The translations under genes were made by a program, and so were the position numbers. A stretch of 64,000 nt of DNA, taken from contig JAHBXH010000001.1 in the NCBI GenBank assembly GCA_019636555.1, positions 1,956,928-2,020,927 on the forward strand, in the 5' to 3' direction. Of the stretch, positions 10,059-51,686 are shown piece by piece. The stretch is from Phycisphaeraceae bacterium (lineage in GTDB: Bacteria > Planctomycetota > Phycisphaerae > Phycisphaerales > UBA1924). The notes beneath the pieces were generated by a model. That model made no database searches, was not told the origin of the DNA, and saw only the letters and a program-made list of their open reading frames with translations. How positions within the stretch are numbered: position 1 is the stretch's first letter; every line of letters begins with the position of its first letter.

Positions 10059-13000
10059 TCACGCGCCCGTCCGGCTGCGATCGTTCAGACGCTTCATCAG
10101 TTCCAGGATGTCATCCATCGGCAGGTCCGGCGGCAGTTCAGACCGGTGTCGGTCGAGCTGATACTGCATGTTGCCCCCCATGTGCCGGTTGAAGTAGCGC
10201 ATGTTCCAGACCTGAACATTCCCGACCGAGTCGCCCACAAGGAGTTTGCGACCGTCCGGGCTCCATTGCAGGCTGTTGACCTCCCAGCTGGAGAATCGAT
10301 CGATGGTGAGCATGCAGGGCTCGTTCATGTGAGTCATATCCCAGAGCCGCAGCGTCCCGTCGGTGCTGGTCGTTGCGAAGATCATGGGCTCGCGCTTGCG
10401 AATGGCGATATCCGTTGGCAACCCCCCGTGACCCGTAAAGGACTGGAGAAACTTGCACGTCGCGACGTCCCACAATTCGGCCCGCTTGTTCCAACTGGTC
10501 AGAAGAATCTTCGTCGAATCCGGCGTAAATTCCATCGACCACGGTTGAGGGGCGATCCCGCCCGGACGCATCGCTCCGATCGGTTTCCAATCGCCCACGC
10601 TCCAGAGCCGCAGCGCGCGATCGCGGTCGTTGGTCGCCAGCACTTTGCCATCAGGAGAAAAACGAGCGCTCAGCGCCTCTTCGCGTCCTGCCGTCGGGAT
10701 CCTGTGGATCTCGGTGCATTCCGGAAATCGCAGGACGCGATGGCATTCGTCGTGATACGGCAGCACGAGCAAGTCGCCTGAGGGCGAGAAGTCGATCGAC
10801 CGGGGTGAGAGCGCAAACGCGCCCCGCAACACAACCGAAGGTTCCGGGTTCGGCGAGTTCAAGTCGTAGACACGCGCGCTCGTGTCTTCACCCGCTACGA
10901 CGAGATAGCGAGACGTCCTGTCAAACCTGATCGCGCGCACGCGGGCCGAACTCCCGGTGAGCGTGCGGGCCAGCGACATCGTTGAAGCATCGAAGACGCG
11001 AACCGCCCCTTGCGAGTCTCCGGACGCAATGAACTTCGAGTCCGGGCTCCACGCCGCGACCGCTCTTCCCGCGTGGCCGGGGATCAGCTCCAACCCGGGG
11101 GTGGACGAGAAATCCCAGACGCGGATCGTGTCATCGACCGTGGTCCAGAGCTCTTTACCGCCGGCGAGCAGTGCCGCTCCCGTGCACGACTCGGGGCAGG
11201 AATAGGACCTCAGCTTGCGCTCGCGGCGCCAATCCCACACGTTCATGGTCCACCAGCCGCCTGCAACGAGTCGGGAGCCATCCGCCGTGAAATTGAGCGA
11301 GCGGACTGTTCCGTTTGGCGCGTCAAGGCTGGCAAGACCCTCGGATGTCTCGGGAGCCCACACCCTCACCGTGCGATCTCCTCCTCCCGATGCGAGCACC
11401 GATCCGTCCGGGCTGAACGCAATCACATTCGCCGGCATCGTGTGGCCCCGAAAAATCTGGATCGACTCCGGAATCCCCGCGTCGTCCCACGAAAAAAGCC
11501 GCACGGTCGAATCGCCCGCGGCAATCGCAAATCGCTTCCCGTCCGGAGACCACGCGACCTGGTTCACCCCCGTTTCGATCCGCAGAAGGGTCCGACGGAC
11601 ATCCAGCGTCGAGGGATCGAGCTCGAGGACTCTCCCGTCGCCCAGCCCGGCGAGCAACACGGAATCATCCGGCGAAAATTCAAGCCCGCGCACGAACCGA
11701 TCGCCAAACTTCACCGACTTCGTCGTCGAACCATCCGTCCCATCCACCAGCAGGATGCGACCGTCCTCGTACCCGATCGCGATGCGCTTCCCCGTTCGAT
11801 CGATCGCCAGCCCGCGTGACGTCGAATCCAGCGAGGTCGAAAACGGAATCGAAATGTCTCGGACCGCCGTTCGCGTGGAGACATCCCAGAGTTTGAGCGG
11901 CGGATCGCTCTCCGCGCCGGTGACCACGAACCTCCCGTTGCCCGACGCCGCCATCCCCCAGATCGTCGACGAGTGCGCTCGCACTGTCGCGAGGCAGGGT
12001 TCGTGCATGTAGAGTTCCCAGAGCGCGAAAAAAGTGTGCCGGGAATTAGGTTCGCGCAGGTGAGCCGGCCAGATCAGGTCCTCCGCCGCGAGCAGGTTTC
12101 CCGCGATGCCGAGCAGGCGCCCGCGCTCCACGTTCGATCGCGCCAGCTGCACCGCGAGCGATTCCGATGTCGCGTCCGCGCGCTTGCGCTCTGTTTCCGC
12201 CTGCTTGAGCGCGCTCAGCGCCTCGTTCTTTGCGAGCGCCTCGGTCGCCGCCAGCCGCGACGCGCGGAAGGCCTGAATCCCGGCGAACACGCCGAGGCAG
12301 ACCACGATGAGCAGGAAAAATGCGACGGTGGAGACGATTCCGCGATACCGCCGGAGCTGCTTCCGCAGGACGTACATCGCCGAATCGCGCCGCGCCGAGA
12401 TCGCCTGCCCGGCGAGGTACCGCGCGATGTCATCTCCCAGGTCGCTTGCCGACTGATACCGGCGCGTCCGGTCCTTGGCGAGCGCCTTCGAAACGATCAT
12501 CTCGACATCGCCGCGAAAATAGCGATCGATCGTGCTGAGTCTCGTCGGCTCTTCATCCCGGATAATCCGCGCTGCCTCGGGCAATGAGCGGCTCGCGAGG
12601 TCGTACGGTAGTTTCCCCGCGAGCAGTTCATAGATAATGACTCCCACGGCGTACACGTCGGATCGCGTATCGACCGCCGCCGGATCTCCGCTGACCTGCT
12701 CGGGCGACATGTAAGGCAGCGTGCCGATCAGCGCTCCGACCGCCGTGTGCTCGCTGGTCAATTGGAGATCCGAATCGGTGGTTCGCGCAACGCCGAAGTC
12801 GAGTACCTTCGGTCGCCCCGATTCATCCACGAGGATGTTCGCGGGCTTGAGATCGCGGTGGATGACGCCGTTGCGGTGCGCGTGCTGAACCGCCTCGCAA
12901 ATACGTTCGACCAGTACAAGCTTCTCCCGGTTCCCGAGATTGTGCTTCGCCGCGTACGCGAGCAGCGGATCGCCCCGGACCAACTCCATCGCGATGTACG

Positions 13001-13532
13001 GGTGGGTCACGCCATCGACGGCATACGTCCCCGCTTCGAAAATCTGCGCGATCCCCGGATGGTGCAGCCGCCCCAGCAATTCCGCCTCGTGCTCGAAGCG
13101 CCGCAGAATCCGTTGCGCCGAGAGTGAATGCGGATCGCCCAGCACGCGCCGCATCACCTTGAGCGCCACCGTGCGCTTCGGGCGTTCCTGCTGAGCGACA
13201 TACACCACGCCCATCCCGCCGCTTCCGAGCACCCCGAGAATCTGAAAAGTTCCGATCTTCTTGTCCGGCGGCAAGAGCGGCTCGGCATCCGAAAGCGCGC
13301 TCGCGCCGAGCTGGGTCAGCAGCCCTCGTCCCGGCGCCGCCTTCGAATCCAGAAACCCGCCCACGCCCGAATGGTGCTGCAGCAGCGATTCGACCTCGCG
13401 GCGCAGCTCCTCATCGCCTCCGCACACCCCATCCAGAAACGCCGGGCGTTCCAGCGCCGGGAGTTCCGTCGCGCGCAGAAAAATGTCCTCGAGTCGCTGC
13501 GGAGGTGTGCGTTGGCCCGGCGCGGTGCTCAC
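10059..13532 (-). CDS. Membrane-anchored serine/threonine protein kinase with C-terminal WD40 repeats
   Basis: The protein has 1157 residues. The start is GTG 13532, which overlaps the stop of the upstream sigma factor as GTGA. Residues 1-90 hold a helical segment often seen before planctomycete kinases (LEDIFLRATELPALERPAFL). The kinase domain runs from about 95 to 380: Gly loop LGSGGMGVVY near 103, Lys in VALKVMRR near 125, HRDLKPANILV near 225, DFGVA near 245, and MSPEQ. All catalytic residues are present. One membrane segment lies at about 400-420 (VAFFLLIVVCLGVFAGI) and is followed by a coiled coil. From about 530 to the end there are WD40 repeats (for example IAFSPDGSVLASGGGDRTVR). The coupling suggests it signals with or controls the ECF factor. 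A terminator follows at 9861-9898. Confidence 0.93.
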   Translation of the reverse strand: MSTAPGQRTPPQRLEDIFLRATELPALERPAFLDGVCGGDEELRREVESLLQHHSGVGGFLDSKAAPGRGLLTQLGASALSDAEPLLPPDKKIGTFQILGVLGSGGMGVVYVAQQERPKRTVALKVMRRVLGDPHSLSAQRILRRFEHEAELLGRLHHPGIAQIFEAGTYAVDGVTHPYIAMELVRGDPLLAYAAKHNLGNREKLVLVERICEAVQHAHRNGVIHRDLKPANILVDESGRPKVLDFGVARTTDSDLQLTSEHTAVGALIGTLPYMSPEQVSGDPAAVDTRSDVYAVGVIIYELLAGKLPYDLASRSLPEAARIIRDEEPTRLSTIDRYFRGDVEMIVSKALAKDRTRRYQSASDLGDDIARYLAGQAISARRDSAMYVLRKQLRRYRGIVSTVAFFLLIVVCLGVFAGIQAFRASRLAATEALAKNEALSALKQAETERKRADATSESLAVQLARSNVERGRLLGIAGNLLAAEDLIWPAHLREPNSRHTFFALWELYMHEPCLATVRAHSSTIWGMAASGNGRFVVTGAESDPPLKLWDVSTRTAVRDISIPFSTSLDSTSRGLAIDRTGKRIAIGYEDGRILLVDGTDGSTTKSVKFGDRFVRGLEFSPDDSVLLAGLGDGRVLELDPSTLDVRRTLLRIETGVNQVAWSPDGKRFAIAAGDSTVRLFSWDDAGIPESIQIFRGHTMPANVIAFSPDGSVLASGGGDRTVRVWAPETSEGLASLDAPNGTVRSLNFTADGSRLVAGGWWTMNVWDWRRERKLRSYSCPESCTGAALLAGGKELWTTVDDTIRVWDFSSTPGLELIPGHAGRAVAAWSPDSKFIASGDSQGAVRVFDASTMSLARTLTGSSARVRAIRFDRTSRYLVVAGEDTSARVYDLNSPNPEPSVVLRGAFALSPRSIDFSPSGDLLVLPYHDECHRVLRFPECTEIHRIPTAGREEALSARFSPDGKVLATNDRDRALRLWSVGDWKPIGAMRPGGIAPQPWSMEFTPDSTKILLTSWNKRAELWDVATCKFLQSFTGHGGLPTDIAIRKREPMIFATTSTDGTLRLWDMTHMNEPCMLTIDRFSSWEVNSLQWSPDGRKLLVGDSVGNVQVWNMRYFNRHMGGNMQYQLDRHRSELPPDLPMDDILELMKRLNDRSRTGA

Positions 13533-14209
13533 TCTTCCGAATCCGAAGTGTCGGCGCCCGCGACCTGGCGCTTCAGCCACGCGCGGGCGAACGTCCAGTC
13601 ATTCTTCACCGTCGCGGGCGACACTCCCAGCGCGTCCGCGGTTTCTTCGATCGACAAGCCCGCGAAATACCGCAGCATGACGACGTCGTACTTGCGCCGA
13701 TCGTGCTTCTCAAGTCCCTTCAATGCATCATCGAGCGCCAGCATCTCCTCCGCCGGCGGCTCGCTCGCGAGCACCGGAGAGATGTCCGCCATCTCGATGT
13801 CCGCACGCTGCAACCCGCCGCCGTGCTTGAGCCGCTTGCGGTGACGGGCACGCTCGACCAGAATCCGGCGCATCGCCAGTGCCGCGGCACCAAAGAAGTG
13901 CCCGCGCCCGTTCCAGCGCACCTCGTGATCACCGAGCAGGCGGAGGTACGCTTCGTGTACAAGCGCCGTCGGTTGGAGCGTCATCCCAGCGCCGCGCTTG
14001 GGTTCGCGCGCCATGCGCACCTGCGCGAGCCGCCGAAGTTCTTCGTACACCAAGGGCAATAGATCGCGCGCAGCCTGCGAATCTCCGCCCGCCGCCGCAA
14101 CGAGCAACTGCGTCACCTGCGCCGCAGCCGGAGAGGGCGGGGGCGTCGCAACGTGGGTCGCCGTTGTCGGCTTGTCGCCTGGTTTGGGTGGCGCGGGCCT
14201 GTGATCCAT
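13529..14209 (-). CDS. ECF-type RNA polymerase sigma factor (TIGR02999-like)
   Basis: The protein has 226 residues. After a Pro/Thr-rich leader of about 35 residues come region 2 (LLPLVYEELRRLAQVRMARE, LQPTALVHEAYLRLLG) and region 4 (YFAGLSIEETADALGVSPAT with a helix-turn-helix, then FARAWLKRQ). The RRLA...LVHEAYLRL...RILVERARHRKRLKHGGG layout is that of the sigma-70 ECF group common in planctomycetes. ATG 14209 has GGGGAG just upstream; the open frame extends to 14431. Its stop overlaps the start of the kinase-WD40 gene by four bases, a typical ECF-STK pairing. No anti-sigma factor is nearby, so phosphorylation may be the control. Confidence 0.9.
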   Translation of the reverse strand: MDHRPAPPKPGDKPTTATHVATPPPSPAAAQVTQLLVAAAGGDSQAARDLLPLVYEELRRLAQVRMAREPKRGAGMTLQPTALVHEAYLRLLGDHEVRWNGRGHFFGAAALAMRRILVERARHRKRLKHGGGLQRADIEMADISPVLASEPPAEEMLALDDALKGLEKHDRRKYDVVMLRYFAGLSIEETADALGVSPATVKNDWTFARAWLKRQVAGADTSDSEE

Positions 14210-14455
14210 CAAAGCTCCCCGGATTTGCCGCGGCGCGGGCCGTGGCGAGAACAAATATGCCAGCATCCCAAGTGTGACCGGCGGAGCCCCGAGTTGCAAG
14301 GCTTTGGCTTCATCTACGCATCGGATACCGGAAAGGAGCGGCCCAGGCCCGAGAAAGCAGCCGGAATCAGGCGAATGTCTCCGAATCGCACCGCCATTGC
14401 GAACACGTCTCTGCCCGCGCATTACCTCCAAGTTCTCGGATGCTGTCGTCTCGAT

Positions 14456-48820: not shown

Positions 48821-49229
48821 AATTCTCGTATGTGCCCTTTCCCCTCGGGCACACACGACCATTTCCTCTCGACTCGGTGCGAGGCTGGCGCCTCGTGCCG
48901 AACCCCACTGCCGAGTTACCTTTTTTTCCTCCACCCCGTCCTGCTTCTACCTGACCACCGGCACAGCTCCAAACTCTCTTCCCTCTCTGTGCCCACTCCC
49001 CTCCCGAGTCAAAGCGGAAACGCGAGTCCGCGCCTGCGAACTTTTTGCAAAAAGGATGCAATCCAAACAAAATACGAATTTAGACTCTCTCGGACGCGAA
49101 TCGAACAGGATCTTGCAGTCAAGGCGTTCCGGCCCATGCCCCCATGCGGGGCGGAGTTTCTTTGTGCTCATGGCTGCAGCCGAATCCGGTCGATTTCGCT
49201 GTTTCAGGAAAGCGGGTAATGCGTTTCTG
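48821..49229. other. Non-coding stretch before the pseudokinase gene
   Basis: About 400 bases, locally less GC-rich. The kinase frame is open across it, but codon content is poor, so I start the gene at 49230. An alternative in-frame ATG at 49170 has GCGGAG about 13 bases upstream. Confidence 0.4.
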
Positions 49230-50513
49230 ATGCAGTCAAGTGACTTCGCCATTCCCAGGGCCACTTTGGACTCCGAGCGTTTCAAGCTCGTACGCGAGAT
49301 TTTTCTTGATGCGCAGCGCTTCCGCGGTGCCGCGCGGCAGGCATTTTTGTCTCAGCGGTGCGGTGGGGATCCAGCGCTCCAGAGGCAAGTGACGGACCTG
49401 CTGAAGTACGACGATTCTGAGGCTTCGGTACTCGACAAACCGGTGATCCGGGCGATCGAGGAAACTTCAGAGATTCCGCGGATGCGAGTTCCGCGTGAGC
49501 CGGTCGGCCGATTTAAGCTGCTCCAAGTGCTCGGCGAGGGAGCGAGCGGCGTCACGAGCCTCGCGCATAATCCCGAGGCGCGCAATCGGCGTGCTGTCGT
49601 CAAGGTTGTTCATTCGGCATTCTCATTCTCAACCGCCGAAGCCCGGGAGGTTGTTTCTCGTATTCAGGTGGATCAGCGGTCGCTGGCGCTCCTTCGCCAG
49701 TATCCTTCGCCGCGCCTTCTCGACGCCGCACAATTGACAGGCGGCGGAATGTTCGTCGCCACGGATTTCGTTCCCGGCGAGCCCATTTTAAACTACTGCG
49801 ATCGGGTCAGAGCTTCGATTCGCGCGAGGCTCCTTTTGTTTTTGGATGCCTGCGAAGCGGTGCAAGCGGCTCATCAATGCGGGGTCATTCACGGTGGCCT
49901 GGCGCCGGGAAACGCGTTGGTTCGCATGGCCGGCGATGTTCCGACAGTCACCCTCCTTGATTTTGGCATCGCCCGTGCGCTTCACGACCTGCTCGGGCAC
50001 CGCCGAACTTGGCTCGAAATGCGATTGAATCGCGGCGCCGTCGAGTACCTGGCGCCTGAGCAGGTCGCCGACCAGCCGCGTCTGACCGAGCCTGGTTCGG
50101 ATGTCTACGCCTTGGGGGCACTGCTCTACGAGATCCTCGTCGGCGTCGCGCCGTTCGACCGATTTGCTCTGCGGCGTGCCGGGATCGGCGATTTCTCGCG
50201 CATCATTCAGGAGCAGAAAGTTCTCGATCCTGTCGCACGGCTCTCTGAACTCTCGGATCGCTCGGACGAAATCGCCGCCCGTCGCTCGACAAGCTCCGGC
50301 GAGCTCTTCTCCGAACTCAACAAAGAGCTGGGCGCGATTCCGATGAAGGCCTTGCATAAAGCACCCACGAACCGGTACTCCGCGGTGTCTGCCATGGCCG
50401 AGGACATTCGGGGCTACCTTGATGGCAAACCGGTCGGCGCCGCGCACGGACTTGGCGGGAGGTTTCGGCGCATGCTCGATCGATTCCGCGGGCTTGACGG
50501 CAAATCCCGCTAA
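49230..50513 (+). CDS. Serine/threonine kinase-like protein lacking the catalytic Asp (pseudokinase)
   Basis: The protein has 427 residues. The N-terminal helical segment (LVREIFLDAQRFRGAARQAF) resembles the one in the kinase-WD40 protein. The kinase fold keeps the Gly loop (LGEGASGVTS near 101), Lys125 (AVVKVV), DFG at 244-246 and APEQV, but the catalytic loop is HGGLAPGN at 221-228 instead of HRDLKPxN. Asp and Lys of the loop are lost, so phosphotransfer is unlikely. It may act as a signalling scaffold. A C-terminal basic tail (RMLDRFRGLDGKSR) follows. The gene overlaps the stop of the convergent ECF sigma factor. The start could be ATG 49170. Confidence 0.8.
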   Translation: MQSSDFAIPRATLDSERFKLVREIFLDAQRFRGAARQAFLSQRCGGDPALQRQVTDLLKYDDSEASVLDKPVIRAIEETSEIPRMRVPREPVGRFKLLQVLGEGASGVTSLAHNPEARNRRAVVKVVHSAFSFSTAEAREVVSRIQVDQRSLALLRQYPSPRLLDAAQLTGGGMFVATDFVPGEPILNYCDRVRASIRARLLLFLDACEAVQAAHQCGVIHGGLAPGNALVRMAGDVPTVTLLDFGIARALHDLLGHRRTWLEMRLNRGAVEYLAPEQVADQPRLTEPGSDVYALGALLYEILVGVAPFDRFALRRAGIGDFSRIIQEQKVLDPVARLSELSDRSDEIAARRSTSSGELFSELNKELGAIPMKALHKAPTNRYSAVSAMAEDIRGYLDGKPVGAAHGLGGRFRRMLDRFRGLDGKSR

Positions 50514-51121
50514 TCCTGATCGTGTTCGCCGAGCGCTTCTCCCAATTCATGCCGCAGCCACGCACGCGCGAACCGCCAATCTTCGTGCACGGTGCGGGGC
50601 GAAATGCCGAGCACGCGCGCGATCTGGTCGATCGTCAGACCGCCGAAGAACCGCAGTTCCACAATGCGGGCCGATCGCTCGTTGAGCTGGCGAAGTTTCT
50701 CGATCGCGCCATCGATTTCGAGCAATTCCGCCACCGTGGACGGCCCGTGTTCGTCGGGTGCCGCGGCGTCGAAGTCGCCCAGTCGCCCAACTTCGCCGCC
50801 GCCGCGTTTGATCGCGTTTCGGCGCCGCGCGTGGTCTACGAGCACCCGGCGAATCACCGCTGCAGCGGCGGCAAGAAACTGTTCCCGATCGTTGACTTTG
50901 ATCGCTTTTTCCCAACCCGCGAGCCGGACAAAGGCTTCGTGCACGACCTCCGTCGCCTGCATGGAGTGATCCCGTCGCTCCCGGTTCATGTATCGCGCCG
51001 CGATCTCGCGCAATTGGTTGTACAGTTCGGGCATGACCTCGGCGACGTGCGCCTCGAGCGCTGATTTTGGGGTGTCGGTGGCGCTGCTCGGCGGCGGCTC
51101 GGTTGACTCGGGCTGATTCAT
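50510..51121 (-). CDS. ECF-type RNA polymerase sigma factor (TIGR02999-like)
   Basis: The protein has 203 residues. Region 2 reads LYNQLREIAARYMNRERRDH and TEVVHEAFVRLAGWEKAI, followed by AAAAAVIRRVLVDHARRR. Region 4 has the helix-turn-helix ELRFFGGLTIDQIARVLGIS and PRTVHEDWRFARAWL. It is the same ECF type as the one at 13529. The stop overlaps the end of the convergent pseudokinase gene by four bases. ATG 51121 is 40 bases from the divergent FUN14 gene. In this lineage such factors go with kinases; here the partner is a convergent pseudokinase instead of a coupled active kinase. Confidence 0.9.
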   Translation of the reverse strand: MNQPESTEPPPSSATDTPKSALEAHVAEVMPELYNQLREIAARYMNRERRDHSMQATEVVHEAFVRLAGWEKAIKVNDREQFLAAAAAVIRRVLVDHARRRNAIKRGGGEVGRLGDFDAAAPDEHGPSTVAELLEIDGAIEKLRQLNERSARIVELRFFGGLTIDQIARVLGISPRTVHEDWRFARAWLRHELGEALGEHDQD

Positions 51122-51161: not shown

Positions 51162-51686
51162 ATGATGGCTGAATCAAACTCACGGGCTACTTCCTCTCCG
51201 CCGGACCTCGGCCGCAAGCGGGGGCTGCTCTCATCCAAGTCGCTCTGGCTGGCGATCCTGATCACACTGGCGGGCGCTGCATGGTGGGCGTATTCCGCCA
51301 CCGGAGCAACGCGTACTCCGGCTGCTCCGGTGCCGGTTTCCGGATTCGCTGCTTCGCCGACAAACGCACCTCCCGAACCGCGCGTCCAAGCTCCCGCGGC
51401 GTTTCGCTACGGCGCGAGTTTCGTCGGCGCCTTTCTGATCGCTTTCGTCCTTAAGAAAATCATTCGGAGCGTTCTTCTCATCGCGGCGATCCTGGTCGGC
51501 GCCGTCCTCGCGCTGAAGTATTTCGGGCTCATGGACTTTGACTGGTCGAACGCTCAGCGACATGTCGAAGATGGCGCCGCGCTCGCGCGAGAAGAGAGCG
51601 AGAAGTATCGAACTCTTTTGTTGAGTTATCTTCCTTCTGGTCTCGCATCCGGCGCCGGAGCGCTTTTCGGCGCTAAGAGAGGCTAA
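51162..51686 (+). CDS. FUN14-like small membrane protein
   Basis: The protein has 174 residues. One membrane segment lies near residues 28-45 (SLWLAILITLAGAAWWAYS). After a Pro/Ala linker comes FVGAFLIAFVLKKIIRSVLLIAAILVG split across two helices, then LKYFGLMDFDW. This GF..GxxxKK...(hydrophobic)...LxYxGxxxxDW layout is that of FUN14 family proteins. Function in bacteria is unknown. ATG 51162 has AGGAGG 8 bases upstream; the ATG at 51165 is an alternative. It is divergent from the ECF factor. Confidence 0.7.
   Translation: MMAESNSRATSSPPDLGRKRGLLSSKSLWLAILITLAGAAWWAYSATGATRTPAAPVPVSGFAASPTNAPPEPRVQAPAAFRYGASFVGAFLIAFVLKKIIRSVLLIAAILVGAVLALKYFGLMDFDWSNAQRHVEDGAALAREESEKYRTLLLSYLPSGLASGAGALFGAKRG

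Follow-up and report, generated by a model that had tools for sequence, protein, structure and literature searches.

A conserved pseudokinase encoded tail-to-tail with an ECF sigma factor in a genus of uncultured planctomycetes

In the kinase-linked sigma factors of group ECF43, the acidic residues of the DxxD motif in region 2.2, which contact RNA polymerase, have given way to other residues, and a phosphorylated threonine in this region has been proposed to restore the charge (PMC13147305; PMC8999054; PMC8103513). The kinase PknS is described as phosphorylating the sigma factor EcfK at sites that include Thr51 of region 2.2, and this was proposed to enable contact with the polymerase (PMC13147305). 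It should be noted that the same source reports a QATE tetrad in EcfK alongside an active kinase, a Thr51Ala variant that still works, and an acidic fourth tetrad residue in 15.8% of ECF43 (PMC13147305).

A review of bacterial pseudokinases describes GLW in place of HRD together with a replaced beta3 Lys in the GLW family, a beta3 Arg and an Asp-to-Asn exchange in HRD in the ActPs2 family, and a retained catalytic Asp with degraded ATP- and DFG motifs in the DLHK family (PMC12599244); neither "sigma" nor "Planctomyc" occurs in its main text. According to the figures reported for one planctomycete, 525 of 610 kinases carry all three key residues (PMC11032199), which documents, at the level of counts, that the phylum has kinases lacking them. 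The titles and abstract openings of the open-licence papers listed on pseudokinases, ECF43 and sigma-kinase pairs yielded no description of an ECF-paired pseudokinase, and one may have been reported elsewhere.

The pseudokinase and its sigma factor

The window, that is, the whole stretch of 64,000 nucleotides that was analysed, is part of a 3.8-Mb genome and encodes a kinase-like protein with the following features.

49230 to 50513, plus strand: pseudokinase gene, 427 aa, with an N-terminal helical domain and a kinase fold (profile match, alignment and AlphaFold2 model)
49269 to 49409, plus strand: domain of three helices at the N-terminus (residues 14-60), the best conserved stretch of the pseudokinase family
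49533 to 49550, plus strand: glycine loop GEGASG, retained
49602 to 49604, plus strand: beta3 Lys125 (VVK), retained in all eight genomes of the genus
49671 to 49673, plus strand: alphaC position, Asp148; Asp in all eight, Glu in nine aligned HRD kinases
49890 to 49913, plus strand: catalytic loop HGGLAPGN, residues 221-228, replacing HRDLKPxN
49959 to 49967, plus strand: DFG, residues 244-246; Asp244 in all eight, FG absent from two relatives

An earlier, sequence-only reading had pointed to HGGLAPGN in place of HRDLKPxN in a protein that keeps the glycine loop, the Lys and DFG, and each of these elements was recovered at the places listed. HRD has lost its Arg and its catalytic Asp, the Lys that follows is gone as well, and the metal-binding Asn228 is present. 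Among the residues that mark an active Hanks-type kinase, the beta3 Lys, the DFG Asp and the loop Asn are thus retained and the HRD catalytic Asp is missing, and the protein, as judged from its sequence, is without an ordinary catalytic base. The kinase fold itself is recognised by profile, with 68.6 bits to Pfam Pkinase (cut-off 31.7). An AlphaFold2 model built from 17 sequences, which superseded one from eight sequences with a pLDDT of 56, has a mean pLDDT of 83.3 and a pTM of 0.73 and consists of three N-terminal helices and a bilobal kinase. Its top PDB match in Foldseek is PknS (9eed, E 6.7e-17), with a TM score of 0.87 when normalised by target length and 0.57 when normalised by query length, and PknS is also the top match by sequence among solved structures (E 7.4e-33). 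The C-terminal end of the pseudokinase lies approximately where the usual partner kinases enter a membrane helix (identified by eye) and continue into long C-terminal regions; reading its sequence by eye revealed no evident membrane helix or sensor part, and the protein is probably cytosolic.

The gene converges with a sigma factor gene on the other strand:

50510 to 51121, minus strand: ECF sigma factor gene, TIGR02999 / Sigma70_ECF, 203 aa
50510 to 50513, unstranded: overlap of the two stop codons, four bases
50948 to 50959, minus strand: region 2.2 tetrad QATE (Thr57, Glu58); the other TIGR02999 ECFs of the genus mostly have QPTA or QATA

The identification of this gene as TIGR02999-like holds, with 179.7 bits to TIGR02999 (cut-off 126.15) and 154 bits to Sigma70_ECF. 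The four-base overlap of the stops was also correctly seen, the TAA of the pseudokinase occupying 50511-50513 on the plus strand and the TAG of the ECF gene 50512-50510 on the minus strand. The shared bases 50510-50513 are, however, private to this genome, and the stops do not overlap in the seven other genomes of the genus.

TIGR02999 presumably overlaps with ECF43, and the sigma factor has the Thr for DxxD in region 2.2 that is typical of the latter. Two further traits of ECF43-type sigma factors are absent: the fourth place of the tetrad is not free of acid but holds Glu58 in 8/8 genomes, an exception shared with EcfK, and the kinase encoded alongside is without the catalytic Asp, likewise in 8/8. 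The tetrad QATE is present in all eight partner sigmas, whereas an acid occupies the fourth place in only one of the 66 other TIGR02999 ECFs of the genus (in 65 of these the residue is Ala 56 times, Ser five times, Val three times and Glu once, and the 66th has SATA). The simplest view is therefore that the acid of QATE is a derived state, which has become fixed in this lineage. A Thr occupies the phosphosite position in 74/74 TIGR02999 ECFs of the genus, the eight partners included.

Several other region 2.2 variants were observed. Apart from the partners, a single ECF of the genus (L156, in genome G006) was seen to have an acidic fourth residue; its tetrad is HPTE and it adjoins a co-directional HRD kinase, and three TIGR02999 ECFs (L175, L176 and L179) have EVTS on a very long branch and HRDVKPSN kinases downstream. 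Outside the genus, the strict pattern QxTE was found in five of 392 phylum genomes, the present one and four others. Within about 1.5 kb, two of the four non-genus ECFs have a co-directional downstream HRD kinase, one has a divergent HRD kinase and one has none. Independent replication of a rule that an acid in region 2.2 accompanies a dead kinase thus failed, as three of the four adjoin an HRD kinase, and the rule was rejected. The occurrence of QATE with an active kinase in EcfK, and of QxTE beside HRD kinases in the phylum, implies that it is compatible with both modes.

Conservation, orientation and spread of the pair

The genus was sampled with eight genomes including that of the window (Phycisphaerales MAGs, uncultured planctomycetes). 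All eight contain an orthologue of the pseudokinase, the seven relatives being 40-74% identical to it; in G007 the orthologue ranks second by E-value and was picked out by its motif and its ECF neighbour. The position of the former HRD Asp is Gly in every one of them, and the Lys of HRDLKP is also gone in six of the eight. The expectation that relatives keep HGG was borne out for the loss of the catalytic Asp (8/8) and not for HGG itself, which is confined to the present genome and G006, the other six having HAG. Because H[AG]G, and not HRD, stands at this place in all eight genomes, chance or a private mutation can be ruled out as the cause of the loss, and the pseudokinase reading withstands the comparison with relatives. 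Lys125, Asn228, the DFG Asp244, the APE Glu277, Asp291 and Arg382 are invariant.

The gene had been called degenerate, but decay is not what the genomes indicate. The reading frames are intact in 8/8, and dN/dS (NG86) is 0.08-0.29 in eight genome pairs, with dS near saturation, which together rule out a sequencing error or a pseudogene; an assembly error is ruled out, as the H[AG]G loop and the ECF gene facing it recur in 8/8. The corresponding values (NG86) are 0.009-0.13 for the partner sigma in seven pairs, one further pair being undefined, and 0.03-0.09 in eight pairs for a single orthologous group of active kinases, of which the kinase core was used. Among the four closest genomes (five pairs), dN is 0.16-0.23 for the whole pseudokinase and 0.02-0.04 for the kinase core of the active group. 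A dN/dS that is low and yet above that of the active group means that the pseudokinase evolves faster but is constrained, and these substitution rates place it under purifying selection.

The constraint is unevenly distributed along the protein. Mean identity is 0.73 in the N-terminal helical domain, 0.50 in the N-lobe and 0.66 in the C-lobe of the pseudokinase, whereas in five of five groups of active kinases it is the N-terminal part that scores lowest (0.54-0.72 versus 0.76-0.91; for three of these groups a fallback rule set the N-terminal window, and their values are rough). The order of conservation, with the N-terminal domain best conserved, is thus the reverse of that in the active kinases compared.

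The orientation of the pair was compared with that of all other TIGR02999 ECFs in the eight genomes. The search yielded 73 ECFs that exceed the cut-off with a single match and a further one (G007:C28) that passes only with its two pieces joined, matches below the cut-off being left out; the resulting 74 comprise the eight partners and 66 others, which were inspected with up to 2.2 kb per side. Kinases beside 65 of them were detected by phmmer (E at or below 1e-8) in frames of at least 90 aa, and beside the 66th by the catalytic motif only. The convergent neighbour of the pseudokinase is the same ECF orthologue, tail-to-tail, in 8/8 genomes, whereas a converging kinase was found within up to 2.2 kb per side at none of the 66 other ECFs. 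A downstream kinase on the same strand accompanies 59 of the 66 (four of these 59 also have a divergent kinase), one has a kinase only upstream on the same strand, and at six, one of them at a contig end, no kinase was found within this distance. The catalytic motif of the 59 downstream kinases is HRD in 53, HLD in four and HRDLKSGN in one, and one is a fragment without the motif. The HRDLKSGN kinase (L126) had been considered motif-less, which was rejected, as the first pattern had missed the motif. With 0/66 convergent and HRD or HLD elsewhere, the pair stands out in its orientation as well as in the loss of the Asp. Fisher tests gave 7e-11 for orientation and 7e-10 for the acid; they treat orthologues as independent and were not used as evidence. 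Five ECFs (L157, L159, L162, L165 and L190) were observed to carry the tetrad SATA in region 2.2; no kinase was detected beside them in up to 2.2 kb per side, for L190 by motif only.

In a tree of 73 ECFs built with a quick method, the eight partner sigmas form one clade (SH-aLRT 99), as do the eight pseudokinases in an equally quick tree of 66 kinases, 58 of them active (SH-aLRT 99). The stem of the pseudokinase clade is long, 1.3 changes per site, and was flagged for long-branch attraction; the point at which the clade joins is uncertain and the deep forks are weak. The view that the pair is a version of the ECF-kinase pair at 10-14 kb of the window found no support: that pair is co-directional, and its kinase, a 1173-aa WD40 protein, lies elsewhere in the quick tree with its weak deep forks. 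It should also be noted that the eight genomes share a single origin, so that QATE and the constant neighbourhood amount to no more than one evolutionary event.

Two further elements flank the pair:

51162 to 51686, plus strand: FUN14-family protein gene, divergent from the ECF gene with about 40 bases between them
49176 to 49199: GCAG-N11-CGATTTCGC, a non-coding block conserved ahead of the pseudokinase gene in five of eight genomes

The FUN14-family match reaches 24.3 bits (cut-off 22.5). Pseudokinase, ECF and FUN14-family gene occur together in 8/8 genomes; that the latter belongs to the module is a guess, and it may be a target of the sigma factor. On the left-hand side, an acyltransferase gene is common to five of the seven relatives, with a beta-CASP gene beyond it in four of seven, and neighbours on both sides of the pair are syntenic in five of seven. 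Neither left-hand gene was found at the locus in G006 or G007, where the pair is still present; the contig of G007 is only 6.4 kb long, and that of G004 stops inside the acyltransferase gene. The upstream block is possibly the promoter of the pseudokinase, and its pattern recurs at 14 further places in the eight genomes. A promoter scan returned no promoter-like site, and a terminator scan returned six terminator-like sites against a shuffle mean of 3.9.

Beyond the genus, the H[AG]G pattern matched nine genomes in a sample of 400 from the order, the eight of the genus and G333, whose match lies in an 88-codon frame without a kinase match and was rejected. In a sample of 392 phylum genomes it matched four, namely the present one, G746, G462 and G555; the match in G746 was discarded, as no kinase match was found. 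The proteins in G462 (L188, 1111-3033) and G555 (L189, 212-1840) are more distant, kinase-like proteins with HGG loops from other planctomycete families. They have no ECF match within about 1.2-1.5 kb on each side and are probably independent pseudokinases. With a threshold of E at or below 1e-50 and no more than 19 candidates scored in each genome, the partner ECF was found in 8/163 genomes of the family, every one from this genus. As the H[AG]G pattern is blind to other degenerate motifs, restriction to the genus applies to the H[AG]G motif in these samples and, at the threshold and candidate limit just given, to the sigma factor.

Possible modes of action

A conserved pseudokinase occupies the place that an active receptor kinase has in ordinary ECF-kinase pairs. 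A residue needed for the chemistry is lost, and the pair therefore probably works by binding and not by phosphorylation. The reading that we favour, with about even confidence, is that the pseudokinase may regulate its sigma factor by binding alone, perhaps gated by ATP and most likely as a trap for region 2.2. It would recognise the sigma factor as an active kinase recognises its substrate, but would hold it without phosphorylating it; the holding would probably be gated by ATP binding, with Lys, Asn and the DFG Asp kept, and the N-terminal helical domain would take part in it. In the likeliest case, the result would be a soluble, anti-sigma-like trap that covers region 2.2, the surface touching RNA polymerase, and a sigma factor with QATE and its fixed Glu would need release, not a phosphate, for activity. 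The net effect on the sigma factor could be that of an inhibitor or of an activator. The sequences show the lost base, the purifying selection, the fixed pairing and the altered sigma surface; nucleotide binding, direct contact with the sigma factor and the outcome of that contact are what we infer. A binding-only regulator had already been suggested in the earlier reading; the pattern of conservation fits such a putative role, and relatives retain the paired pseudokinase.

The fixed loss of the Asp, the intact frames, the fixed ECF partner, the conservation of the N-terminal domain, the acid in region 2.2, the persistence of the pair in G006 and G007 without the left-hand neighbours and the precedent of PknS-EcfK all speak for a binding-only regulator. 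Against it stand the single origin of the eight genomes, the synteny in five of seven relatives, the occurrence of QATE with active kinases, the Thr kept in 74/74 and an evolution of the pseudokinase several times faster than that of the active group. More specifically, the protein might be a kinase turned anti-sigma, trapping the region that its active ancestors phosphorylated, while the sigma factor compensated with a built-in acid, so that a phosphorylation switch became one of bind and release; this extended scenario is possible but doubtful.

Pseudokinases commonly act by regulating other kinases, and the protein could thus serve as an allosteric activator, scaffold or decoy for an active kinase that phosphorylates Thr57 of the sigma factor. 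As the position of Thr57 is conserved, down to a Thr at this site in every TIGR02999 ECF of the genus, such phosphorylation in trans is conceivable, and candidate kinases exist in the same genome, which contains 22 matches to the pseudokinase at E at or below 0.001 (itself included, and a few being pieces of one gene). Nevertheless, regulation in trans is unlikely, as the pseudokinase is tied to one sigma factor in 8/8 genomes and no active kinase gene was seen fixed beside it.

The two genes might also be mere neighbours, with the fixed-Glu sigma factor controlled via its own expression and the pseudokinase doing something else. Two convergent genes do not share a transcript, gene order around the pair is conserved as well in five of seven relatives, and QATE would provide the sigma factor with a permanent acid, all of which suit such independence. 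It is nevertheless a distinctly unlikely explanation, because the pair is kept in the two genomes in which the left-hand neighbours were not found, and because 59/66 of the other TIGR02999 ECFs lie just upstream of a kinase, which makes ECF-kinase linkage a rule of the family.

SelO, which is without the catalytic Asp, AMPylates. Residual catalysis of this kind, as nucleotidyl transfer or as weak phosphorylation with another base, agrees with the retention of the ATP and metal ligands Lys125, Asn228 and Asp244 in 8/8, but it is the least probable explanation, given the alphaC Asp in 8/8, the loss of the loop Lys in 6/8 and of FG in 2/8, and a catalytic loop with no conserved substitute acid.

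If the pseudokinase is a binding-only regulator, this lineage would be a natural experiment on how kinase-linked sigma factors make contact with RNA polymerase. With the shape of a kinase and the partner sigma factor retained, the catalytic base dropped and the sigma factor changed to match, it would separate the binding role of the kinase from its catalytic one.

Comparison with known systems

Kinase-linked ECFs are common in the genus, and in the cases described, EcfK and EcfP, the kinase is reported to act by phosphorylation. The module is an ECF-kinase pairing in which a kinase without the catalytic Asp faces the sigma factor. The closest likeness is to PknS-EcfK of Xanthomonas citri and PknT-EcfP of Vibrio parahaemolyticus, pairs of an ECF43 sigma factor and a Hanks-type kinase; here too, a sigma factor with Thr for DxxD is combined with a similar kinase. 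The N-terminal helices recall those predicted in PknS according to its description, and the QATE tetrad is that of EcfK. However, PknS spans the membrane and, as an active kinase, phosphorylates EcfK, while the pseudokinase is without the catalytic Asp and without an evident membrane helix or sensor.

The co-directional TIGR02999 ECF-kinase pairs of the same genomes, such as that at 10059-14431 of the window, resemble the pair in that members of the same families adjoin; unlike the pseudokinase pair, they have the ECF upstream of an HRD or HLD kinase on the same strand. With the described pseudokinase families ActPs1-3, GLW, CP1, DYD and DLHK the protein has in common a kinase fold with degraded catalytic motifs, and CP1 and DLHK are, like it, described as without membrane segments (PMC12599244). 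As far as the family descriptions go, the combination of H[AG]G with a retained Lys and DFG Asp sets it apart from GLW, ActPs2 and DLHK.
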